Shown here in pieces: positions 39,855 through 42,909 of a DNA stretch of 42,909 nt. The stretch lies in the NCBI GenBank assembly GCA_002170125.1, contig NHGD01000033.1, forward strand, positions 1 through 42,909, read 5' to 3'. The notes below the pieces were generated by a model. That model did not search any database and was not told the DNA's origin. It was given only the letters and a program-made list of their open reading frames with translations. Positions within the stretch are counted from its first letter, which is position 1, and each line of letters starts with the position of its first letter. The DNA comes from Candidatus Pelagibacter sp. TMED128 (GTDB lineage Bacteria; Pseudomonadota; Alphaproteobacteria; Pelagibacterales; Pelagibacteraceae). The position numbers and the translations under genes were made by a program.

Positions 39855-40622
39855 CTAAAAAGCATCCTTTAAATCACGCAATTTTGCAAATATCTCCTGA
39901 TCAGAGGAGTCTTTTAGACTTAATGCTTGTTTAATAGCTTTATCTTCACATCTCAAAAAAATGTTCGTTTTTATTTCATCACCTATACTAGTAGGAATAG
40001 TAGGCAAATTATCCTTTAATCTTAAATTTACTTCTTTTATTTTATCTTTCAAAAATTGATTTTTATTATCATACTTCAAACAAAAATCTAAATTTCTTTT
40101 AGTATATTCATGCCCACAATAAACTTTTGTATCAGAAGGAAGGCTTTTAAGTTTGTTTAATGAATTAAGCATTTCAGCATGAGTCCCTTCAAATACTCTA
40201 CCGCAACCTAAAGAAAACAAAGTATCACCGGAAAAAAGAATTTTTTCTTTTTTAAAATAAAAGGCAATATGCCCACTAGTATGTCCAGGGATAAAAATTA
40301 TTTTAAATTCTAAATTACCAATTTTAAATATTTGTTTATCTTTTAGTAAAATATCTATACCAGGAATTCGTCTCTTATCTTTTTCAGAAGCTAATATTTT
40401 TGAATTATATTTATCTTTCAGCTCTAAATTTCCACCTACATGGTCTAAATGGTGATGCGTATTTAAAATATAGTCTAATTTTTTGTATTTTCTTATTACT
40501 TCATCACAAGCATTAAAATCTGAGGGGTCTACTATCGAAATTATGTTAGTTTCTTTTTCAAAGATTAAATAACTATAATTATCATTTAAACATGAGATTA
40601 TTTCTATTTTCATTTTAACCAA
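39855..40622 (-). CDS. gloB: Hydroxyacylglutathione hydrolase (glyoxalase II)
   Basis: LNTHHHLDHVGGNLELK, IPGHTSGHIAFYF, LFSGDTLFSLGCGRVFEG, YCGHEYTKRNLDF. Confidence 0.94.
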   Translation of the reverse strand: MVKMKIEIISCLNDNYSYLIFEKETNIISIVDPSDFNACDEVIRKYKKLDYILNTHHHLDHVGGNLELKDKYNSKILASEKDKRRIPGIDILLKDKQIFKIGNLEFKIIFIPGHTSGHIAFYFKKEKILFSGDTLFSLGCGRVFEGTHAEMLNSLNKLKSLPSDTKVYCGHEYTKRNLDFCLKYDNKNQFLKDKIKEVNLRLKDNLPTIPTSIGDEIKTNIFLRCEDKAIKQALSLKDSSDQEIFAKLRDLKDAF

Positions 40623-41223
40623 TTAGAAATATACCTAATTTTGAAAAAAGATTTTTAATTTCTAAATTACTTTTTTTTATTAATGAAGTTTTATCTTCGT
40701 TAACTCCAACAACTTTTTTAATCTGAAAACTTTGTTCATCACAAAAGTTGAAAAGATCTTTTATTGTACACATATGTAAATTTGGAGTGTTGTACCATTT
40801 ATTTGGTAAAGTTTTTGTAACCGGCATTTTACCAAAAAATAGTAACTTAGTTCTTACTTTCCAATATCCAAAATTAGGAATTGAAACTATTACTGATTTT
40901 CCTATTCTTAAAAGTTCTTTCAAAACTTTATCAGGTTCATAAAAAGCTTGAAGTGTTTGACTTAACACGACGTAGTCAAAAGACTGTTTAGGAAATTGAT
41001 GTAACTCAGTTTCTGCATCACCTTGTATTACTGGTAAGCCTTTGTGAATACATTTTTGAACATTGTCTTTATTAAGTTCTAGTCCTCTTACTTCAATATT
41101 TTTTTCTTTTTGCAGAAAATTCATTAGAGAACCGTCTCCACAACCCACATCTAATACTCGTATATTATTAGGTAATAAATCTGCTATTACTTTAAATTCT
41201 TTTTTCATTTTTAAATTTTTCAT
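40615..41223 (-). CDS. metW: Methionine biosynthesis protein MetW
   Basis: RVLDVGCGDGSLMNFL, DYVVLSQTLQAFYEPDKVLKELLRIGKSVIVSIPNFGYWKVR; adjacent to metX. Confidence 0.95.
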   Translation of the reverse strand: MKNLKMKKEFKVIADLLPNNIRVLDVGCGDGSLMNFLQKEKNIEVRGLELNKDNVQKCIHKGLPVIQGDAETELHQFPKQSFDYVVLSQTLQAFYEPDKVLKELLRIGKSVIVSIPNFGYWKVRTKLLFFGKMPVTKTLPNKWYNTPNLHMCTIKDLFNFCDEQSFQIKKVVGVNEDKTSLIKKSNLEIKNLFSKLGIFLIG

Positions 41224-42331
41224 GCATAGATTCTATAAAACCTTTTAAAGTTTTTAAAAATTCTGGTTCATTAAGTAAAAAGGAGTCATGACCTTTATCT
41301 GTGATTATTTCAGAATATGAAACGTCAGCTCCAGACGAGTTAAGAGCAATCACAATATCTTTATTGTCTTTAGTAGTATAAAGCCAGTCGGAAGAAAATG
41401 ACATTACTAAAAATTTTGTACTTTGATTTTTAAAAGCTTCTACAAGACCACCTTTAAATTGTTTTGAAAGATCAAAATAATCCATCGCTCTGGTTATATA
41501 GAGTATTGAATTAGCATCAAACCGTTCCACAAAAGTATAACCTTGATGCCTTAAGTAACTTTCTACTTGAAAGTCTGCATTGAAACTAAATTCATAATCA
41601 GCTTTTTCTTGTAACTTTCTACCAAATTTTTCTTGCATTCCTTTTTCTGATAAATAACTTATATGGCCAACCATCCTAGCAACAGCTAGTCCATTTTTTG
41701 GTTGAACATTTTTAAGAAGATATTTTCCGTTATCCCATACCGGATCAGCCATGATAGCTTGACGCGCTAATTCATTTAATGCAATGTTCTGAGCGCTATG
41801 ACTAGAACTACATGCTATTGGTATTGCTGAAAAAGTTTTTTTAGGAAATGTCGCACAAAACTGTAAAACTTGCATTCCTCCCATGGATCCTCCCGTAGCA
41901 CAAAGAAGTTTATTTATTCCAAGATGGTCAAGCAAAGACTCTTGAGCTCTAACAATATCTCTTATTGTAATAACTGGAAAATCCAATCCATAAGGTTGAT
42001 TGGTTTCTTGATTAATATTTTTTGGCCCCAGTGATCCCATACATCCACCAATTACATTTGCACAAATCACAAAATATTTATTAGTGTCTATTGCTTTCCC
42101 CGGTCCAACTGCCGTAGTCCACCAACCCTCCTTGTTAGTAATTGGGTTTGTACCTGTAACAAATTGATCACCAGTTAATGCGTGAAAAATAAGAATTGCA
42201 TTATCTTTATTAGAACTCAATTTTCCATAGGTTTCGTAAGCTAATGGAAAATTATTAATGGTCTTACCACAATCTAATTTAAGTGGTTTAGATACCTTTA
42301 TCTTTTTAATATTCTCAAGTTTACTATTCAT
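41192..42331 (-). CDS. metX: Homoserine O-acyltransferase
   Basis: LAYETYGKLSSNKDNAILIFHALTG, GGCMGSLGPKNIN, CATGGSMGGMQVLQF. The ORF track starts at 42361, but that ATG lies at the edge of a terminator hairpin; MNSKLE at 42331 is preferred. Confidence 0.94.
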   Translation of the reverse strand: MNSKLENIKKIKVSKPLKLDCGKTINNFPLAYETYGKLSSNKDNAILIFHALTGDQFVTGTNPITNKEGWWTTAVGPGKAIDTNKYFVICANVIGGCMGSLGPKNINQETNQPYGLDFPVITIRDIVRAQESLLDHLGINKLLCATGGSMGGMQVLQFCATFPKKTFSAIPIACSSSHSAQNIALNELARQAIMADPVWDNGKYLLKNVQPKNGLAVARMVGHISYLSEKGMQEKFGRKLQEKADYEFSFNADFQVESYLRHQGYTFVERFDANSILYITRAMDYFDLSKQFKGGLVEAFKNQSTKFLVMSFSSDWLYTTKDNKDIVIALNSSGADVSYSEIITDKGHDSFLLNEPEFLKTLKGFIESMHEKFKNEKRI

Positions 42332-42333
42332 CC

Positions 42334-42359
42334 AAAAAAAAAGCCCAGCTAAACTGGGC
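42334..42359 (-). terminator. Intrinsic terminator between SAM-II aptamer and metX
   Basis: Minus strand GCCCAG-TTTAG-CTGGGC followed by nine T. Confidence 0.85.
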
Positions 42360-42361
42360 AT

Positions 42362-42413
42362 CCCCTTTTTAGCTACATTTATTAAGCGCTTGCAATACGG
42401 TTAAATCAGCGCC
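42362..42413 (-). promoter_or_regulatory. SAM-II riboswitch aptamer upstream of metX
   Basis: Minus strand GGCGCTGATTTAACCGTATTGCAAGCGCTTAATAAATGTAGCTAAAAAGGGG; closely matches the SAM-II (metX/metA motif) consensus as I recall it, with P1 GCGCU/AGCGC, conserved L1 GAUUUAACCGUAUUGCA and 3' strand GUAGCUAAAAAGGG. Confidence 0.95.
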
Positions 42414-42418
42414 TTTTA

Positions 42419-42509: not shown

Positions 42510-42909
42510 ATGAGACTGCCGAAACCAAATAAAATTATAGGGATTAAATATACAGCTGGTTTAAGCTTATTTAAGCGTAAATTAGTTAAAATTAAGATGT
42601 CCGCAAATGAGTCTGCATTAGGACCAAGTCCCAGGGCTATTAAAGAATATAATAAGGTTTCTAGAAATTTTAAAAGATATCCTGACACCAATGGAAATTC
42701 ATTGAAAAATGTTATAGCTAAAAAATTCAAGCTCGATAGAAATAGAATTATCTTAGGTTCTGGTTCTGATCAGATATTCGAATTAATTTGTAGAGCTTAT
42801 ATTAAAAAAGGTGATGAAGTAATAGTTCCTAAATATAGTTTCATAATTTATAGACTTTATAGTAAGAGTAATGGAGCAAAAATAATTTACTCAAAAGAAA
42901 AAAATTTTA
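42510..42909 (+). CDS. hisC: Histidinol-phosphate/aromatic aminotransferase, 5' part (runs off the window)
   Basis: Own translation: MRLPKPNKIIGIKYTAGLSLFKRKLVKIKMSANESALGPSPRAIKEYNKVSRNFKRYPDTNGNSLKNVIAKKFKLDRNRIILGSGSDQIFELICRAY...; no stop before the window end, so absent from the ORF track. Confidence 0.88.
   Translation, partial: MRLPKPNKIIGIKYTAGLSLFKRKLVKIKMSANESALGPSPRAIKEYNKVSRNFKRYPDTNGNSLKNVIAKKFKLDRNRIILGSGSDQIFELICRAYIKKGDEVIVPKYSFIIYRLYSKSNGAKIIYSKEKNF

Follow-up and report, generated by a model that had tools for sequence, protein, structure and literature searches.

The metX leader of a SAR11 genome: a SAM-II riboswitch with a probable antiterminator directed at the terminator loop

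The metX locus and its leader

The window, that is, the whole stretch of 42,909 nucleotides that was analysed, comes from an incomplete 737 kb assembly of Candidatus Pelagibacter sp. TMED128, a member of the Pelagibacteraceae (SAR11). The gene metX, coding for homoserine O-acetyltransferase, lies on the minus strand at 41192..42331 (NCBIfam PRK00175 MetX, E 1.2e-152 for the ORF), and its likely start is the AUG at 42331, referred to here as AUG2. It is followed on the same strand by metW (ORF at 40615..41223; TIGR02081 metW, E 2.5e-70), which overlaps the end of metX in ORF coordinates and is presumably under the same control. A hisC-like aminotransferase fragment (42510-42908, plus strand) is divergent from both genes at the end of the window. 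A MetX protein search placed the nearest proteins, with 90-91% identity, in Pelagibacteraceae single cells and in 'SAR11 cluster bacterium PRT-SC02'.

The metX leader reads, on the minus strand and 5' to 3' from 42414, AGGCGCUGAUUUAACCGUAUUGCAAGCGCUUAAUAAAUGUAGCUAAAAAGGGGAUGCCCAGUUUAGCUGGGCUUUUUUUUUGGAUGAAU. Judged from its letters and its position, this leader is a SAM-II riboswitch. The P1 hairpin of the aptamer (42384..42414 in the RNA fold) is formed by the 5' strand AGGCGCU (about 42414-42408) and the 3' strand AGCGCUU (about 42390-42384), and its loop contains L1 and the 5' strand of P2. The 3' strand of the P2 pseudoknot, AGCUAAAAAGG, is found at 42364..42374. The letters conserved in the solved structure (GAUUU, UUGC and UGUAGCUAAAAAGG) are present in the P1, L1 and P2 strands, and the aptamer stands before a methionine/SAM gene, metX, which is followed by metW. 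It was found that 48 of 52 letters are identical to the SAM-II-WT construct, a 52-nt RNA which we take to be the metX RNA of the PDB 2QWY crystal structure (Sargasso Sea metagenome). The four differences lie in the base of P1 and its flanks, where a C-G pair has become G-U and pairing is retained. Two leaders from the same genus (L032 and L033) carry exactly the 52-nt construct sequence that is printed in PMC8494917, followed by GAUGCCCAGUUUAGCUGGGCU9GGAUG, i.e. the same intrinsic terminator as in the window.

The Rfam search of the window at the gathering level, which for RF00521 demands at least 36 bits, returned no SAM-II match. In a sub-threshold search scored over the whole genome, RF00521 matched positions 42422-42348 with 28.8 bits (E 4.6e-5). 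The SAR11 SAM-II members of family f1, collected by the family search in genus and order, score about 20-35 bits and thus also stay below the gathering score of 36. The low score therefore reflects the model and not the RNA, and such riboswitches are missed by standard annotation.

Behind the aptamer stands an intrinsic terminator, the hairpin GCCCAGUUUAGCUGGGC (42343..42359) with a tract of nine U (42334..42342), to which the fold, a pattern scan and compensatory change in relatives all point. The pattern scan found one such site in the window against 0.1 expected in shuffles. The terminator (42359-42334) lies between aptamer and start codon, as in transcription attenuation. The start codon comes right behind the U-tract, and SAM-V gave no match within the window. 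From P1 at about 42414 to the end of the U-tract the leader measures about 80 nt, so that the aptamer and the overlapping expression platform do fit in the space which a sequence-only reading of this DNA had allotted to them. A second AUG in frame with metX (AUG1, 42359..42361) precedes the terminator. It should be noted here that with the parts in the order AUG1, terminator, AUG2 (42361-42331), automatic gene calling would start metX too early.

Pairing between the aptamer and the terminator loop

The same reading had pointed to AGCUAAA (42374-42368), the first seven bases of AGCUAAAAAGG, as the exact complement of UUUAGCU (42353-42347) in the RNA of the minus strand, and the letters bear this out. 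UUUAGCU consists, as had been stated, of the terminator loop UUUAG and the first two bases of the 3' arm, and AGCUAAA indeed belongs to the P2 3' strand, whose letters are those at the end of the SAM-II-WT construct. The 7+3 bp hairpin put forward at that time, with AGCUAAA/UUUAGCU as outer stem and GGG/CCC as inner pairing, comes out as the minimum-energy structure when 42374-42347 is folded by computer (-12.0 kcal/mol). When the terminator is folded by itself within its flanks the energy is also -12.0 kcal/mol, and the two structures are thus balanced.

Taken alone, the 7-bp match in one leader is suggestive only. The chance of a Watson-Crick run of at least 7 with the aptamer 3' strand is 0.27-0.34% when the stem is fixed and the loop is random and A+T-rich, and 0.8% when stem and loop are both random. 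Some of these pairs come at no cost, since AGCU is palindromic and AG/CU is already the innermost part of the terminator stem; what is informative is the loop, UUUAG.

Folding of growing transcripts gave the two states that were predicted. With the aptamer strand free, the antiterminator in the window leader had a probability of 0.96-1.00 at lengths between the first appearance of UUUAGCU and the sixth U, and with the strand blocked the probability of the terminator was 1.00; the blocked strand is here a proxy for the SAM-bound state, and neither the pseudoknot itself nor the footprint of the polymerase is represented in the folds. The saddle on the way from antiterminator to terminator is estimated at about 13 kcal/mol above the antiterminator. 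The full-length SAM-free RNA takes up a longer terminator with A-tract/U-tract pairing, with a probability above 0.9 once two G past the U-tract are out, and the antitermination decision must therefore be kinetic, made during transcription. The claim of mutually exclusive folds thus stands for the two states with the aptamer strand free or blocked, and has to be amended for the finished SAM-free RNA, which prefers the terminator.

The same behaviour was seen across relatives. In 64 distinct metX leaders the median probability of the terminator was 0.16 with the strand free and 1.00 with the strand blocked; when only the loop letters were permuted it rose to 0.98 with the strand free and the switch was abolished. 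In this simple folding model 45 of the 64 leaders switch and 19 do not, mainly those with a shorter inner pairing. The free and blocked folds, the loop permutation and the permutation test described below agree on an antiterminator which excludes both the terminator and the ligand-bound aptamer.

Leaders were gathered by the SAM-II family search in genus and order, by region fetches and by the MetX protein search, and the metX counts given here refer to 74 distinct leaders possessing a terminator. UUUAGCU is present in 67 of them. The other seven carry UCUAGCU (2), UAUAGCU (2), UUUAGCC, AUUAGCU or CUUAGCU and all keep at least UAGC; the antiterminator pairing is only 5-6 bp in some relatives, and duplex mismatches (UCUAGCU, UAUAGCU, CGCUUCAGC) occur in some SAR11 leaders. 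The spacer between aptamer and terminator is variable (GGGGAU, GGAGAUA, GGAGGUA, GGGUUUUU and others). The terminator stem changes from CCCAG/CUGGG to CCCGG/CCGGG in L052, and G-U intermediates are found in L109, L169 and L181; this compensatory change shows that the stem is real. A U-tract of exactly nine is shared by 71 of the 74. All 21 distinct combinations of metX strand and terminator pair better than stem-preserving permutations (every p <= 0.014), with a mean duplex energy of -8.9 vs -3.1 kcal/mol.

Family f2 is an exception to the expectation that the complementarity is kept wherever the terminator is. Its metX leaders (L002-L031) have a terminator with a loop of 14 nt, and in the permutation test and the folds they showed no significant antiterminator of the loop-capture type. 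The loop motif UUAGUU of f2, considered as a sign of the pairing, was ruled out by these two analyses, and the f2 leaders are therefore not counted as support.

A different set of leaders carries another terminator. A pattern search in which only GCTAAA and the distal GGTGG-U7 arm were fixed yielded 71 different leaders of SAM-II type, whose spacers come in 66 distinct forms. Among those inspected, the downstream genes were metY, metF and a homocysteine methyltransferase gene (bhmT-like), and SAM-V lies downstream in four of five metY/bhmT/metF-type loci checked. The terminator stem of the metY/bhmT-type leaders is CCACCG/CGGUGG, unlike that of metX. About 50 of the 71 possess a 9-nt complement, GCUAAAGCG/CGCUUUAGC. 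Five genomes that form a clade have UAG/CUA in place of GCG/CGC, with GCUAAAUAG facing CUAUUUA or CUCUUUAG; one leader among the 71 has GUG with CGC, a G-U pair, and some members of the set have one mismatch. When the strands were swapped, the GCG type gave -12.0 kcal/mol on its own terminators vs -3.2 on those of the UAG type, and the UAG type gave -4.1 kcal/mol on its own vs -4.6 on those of the GCG type. GCG is thus strongly specific and UAG little specific, and the covariation is therefore partial. As the aptamer strand is fixed by ligand binding, real covariation is possible only in its variable last bases. That loop letters are conserved beside a spacer saturated with change is difficult to understand unless they pair with something, and the aptamer 3' strand would fit this part.

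One leader upstream of a methylenetetrahydrofolate reductase gene (metF-like; L258) has a SAM-II-like strand and a GGUGG terminator, and the locus gave no gathering-level SAM-V match.

Pelagibacter proper has lost the terminator and the partner strand together. In these metX leaders (L084-L090, L092, L094, L095, L097, L099, L100, L183, L185-L230) seven to nine U come directly after the P2 3' strand, followed by a conserved CUC(A/U/C or none)CAAUUC. All 55 distinct Pelagibacter leaders show complementarity between this element and the aptamer letters GAAUUG-C-GAG, 8 of them in a shortened form, CUCAAUUC, and the base opposite the unpaired C is never G. From its complementarity it looks like a separate anti-aptamer expression platform.

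Control of metX and alternative explanations

It is likely that this leader is a SAM-II riboswitch which controls metX(W) by transcription attenuation through a loop-capturing antiterminator, a proposal that builds on the sequences, their conservation, the predicted folds and the dependence of these folds on the loop sequence. When SAM is scarce, the pseudoknot 3' strand AGCUAAA would be free and would capture UUUAGCU upon its emergence. The GGG/CCC pairing beneath the captured duplex would occupy the 5' arm of the terminator, RNA polymerase would pass the U-tract ahead of terminator formation, and metX would be made. With SAM bound, AGCUAAAAAGG would be locked in the pseudoknot, the terminator GCCCAG-UUUAG-CUGGGC would form and transcription would halt just upstream of AUG2. 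Our inference is that SAM alters termination in the cell and that the timing offers a suitable kinetic window. In the metX SAM-II RNA, whose aptamer is nearly identical, P2 and L1 are exposed without SAM and protected with SAM (PMC10907184). The mechanism of the sequence-only reading appears well supported by the leaders compared here once it is corrected in three respects: the decision is kinetic, the pairing is 5-6 bp in some relatives and missing in f2, and AUG1 is not conserved.

SAM-II riboswitches are mostly associated with terminators in Alphaproteobacteria (PMC2258182), and SAM-II attenuation itself is already known. New are the loop-directed register and the terminator behind the exact published SAM-II-WT sequence, and earlier literature may already draw parts of this.

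Attenuation may be extended by a second layer of control, in which the purine run of P2 would serve AUG2 at a distance in the read-through mRNA. In S. meliloti metA, translation from AUG2 is aided by a distant SD in the SAM-II aptamer (PMC9373788). The order of parts (SD, AUG1, terminator, AUG2) is the same in both leaders and no obvious SD is seen between the U-tract and AUG2 in the present one. However, the authors of the S. meliloti study were unable to predict for metA an antiterminator that SAM-II would drive, and AUG2, coming right after the U-tract, may use S1-assisted or SD-less initiation. Such dual control is possible but on the whole rather unlikely.

It is improbable that the terminator limits metX regardless of SAM and that the loop match is merely left over from the palindrome AGCU and a short loop rich in A+T. 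For a single leader the chance of a 7-base run is non-negligible (0.3-0.8%), the full-length RNA is always in the terminator fold and the f2 leaders have a terminator without an antiterminator. A constitutive attenuator would leave unaccounted for the genus-wide conservation of the loop, the 9-nt match in a different terminator together with its co-change, and the outcome of the loop-permutation control.

In the literature the metX SAM-II is classed as translational (PMC5352136), acting by occlusion of the ribosome binding site (PMC6061858, PMC10907184, PMC9373788). Here SAM would hide the SD (AAGGGG) in P2 and block initiation, and the hairpin would be incidental. The purine run is located in P2, and the in-frame AUG1 follows it in the window and in 42 of the 74 distinct leaders. 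However, AUG1 is absent in the other 32, the 0-1 nt that separate it from the purines leave too little room for normal initiation, and it is probably not a true start codon. A conserved start at about 5-10 nt from the SD in P2 was not found among the 74 distinct leaders; in all those inspected an AUG stands past the U-tract, with AUG2 about 30 nt further downstream. A purely translational switch also leaves unexplained the conserved stem with its compensatory change, the nine U in 71 of 74 leaders and the conserved loop, and for the native leader we hold it to be quite implausible. AUG1 (42361) was considered as the metX start and ruled out because of its absence in 32 of 74 leaders, and the idea that the repeat derives from a coding sequence (leader peptide MPSLAG...) was ruled out on the same non-conservation.

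Finally, it is very hard to believe that the UUUAG loop is conserved as a protein site (e.g. for Nus or an RNA chaperone) with the aptamer match secondary, for although UUAG or UAG recurs in the loops of three terminator types, the match extends past UUAG differently in each type (by A/U on one side in metX and by GCG/CGC on the opposite side in metY/bhmT) and changes along with the aptamer in the UAG clade.

Taking transcription attenuation with loop capture as the preferred explanation, the best-studied SAM-II (metX, 2QWY), the model of direct ribosome-site occlusion, is probably a transcription attenuator in its native setting. Its ligand-contacting strand would then also be an antiterminator aimed at the terminator loop, and loop capture would operate in SAR11 metX, metY, bhmT and metF leaders. 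The main interest lies in this reassignment of the standard metX SAM-II model RNA. It would imply that conformational work on the metX SAM-II (smFRET, NMR, simulations) is to be read as a race against the terminator and not in terms of ribosome access, and it would show how a very abundant group of SAM riboswitches, that of SAR11, accommodates its expression platform in about 80 nt.

Comparison with known SAM riboswitches

SAM-I (S-box) attenuators are OFF switches for SAM in which an aptamer strand, an antiterminator and a terminator compete. The logic of competition proposed for the SAR11 leader is the same, but the aptamer fold and the pairing are different and there is no homology.

Other alphaproteobacterial SAM-II riboswitches with terminators, such as that of S. 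meliloti metZ, are alike in aptamer class, in the methionine genes they precede and in OFF logic, and their P2 3' strand is likewise complementary to the terminator, thus being a possible antiterminator arm. Complementarity between a P2 3' strand of the GGUCGG type and the terminator 5' arm was seen in 42 SAM-II leaders from Alphaproteobacteria that possess a terminator-like hairpin; the mean energy was -12.1 kcal/mol vs -7.9 +/- 0.4 kcal/mol in permutations, and none of 300 permutation rounds reached the observed mean. The P2 3' strand as antiterminator thus looks like a general SAM-II design. In the S. meliloti metZ type it is the GC-rich distal P2 (GGUCGG) that pairs with the terminator 5' arm, whereas in SAR11 metX it is the proximal, ligand-contacting AGCUAAA, and its partner is the terminator loop with the beginning of the 3' arm. 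In SAR11, with P2a reduced to about two G-C pairs, the pairing register is shifted to the part of the strand that contacts the ligand and to the terminator loop.

The Sargasso Sea metX SAM-II (2QWY) shares 48 of 52 letters with the aptamer of the window, and the exact construct stands upstream of the same terminator in L032 and L033. The literature treats it as translational, whereas its genomic context indicates a transcription attenuator.

The SAM-II/SAM-V tandems of SAR11 (bhmT, metY) likewise place SAM-II before a terminator, with complementarity between the terminator loop and the 3' strand of the aptamer. They differ from the metX leader, which has a single aptamer, in the stem CCACCG/CGGUGG, the 9-nt match and a second aptamer for translation. 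In these tandems SAM-II is always found upstream of a terminator (PMC9481103), and in a full-length tandem the linker masks SAM-II (PMC11508383), which is what pairing between the aptamer and the terminator loop would predict.
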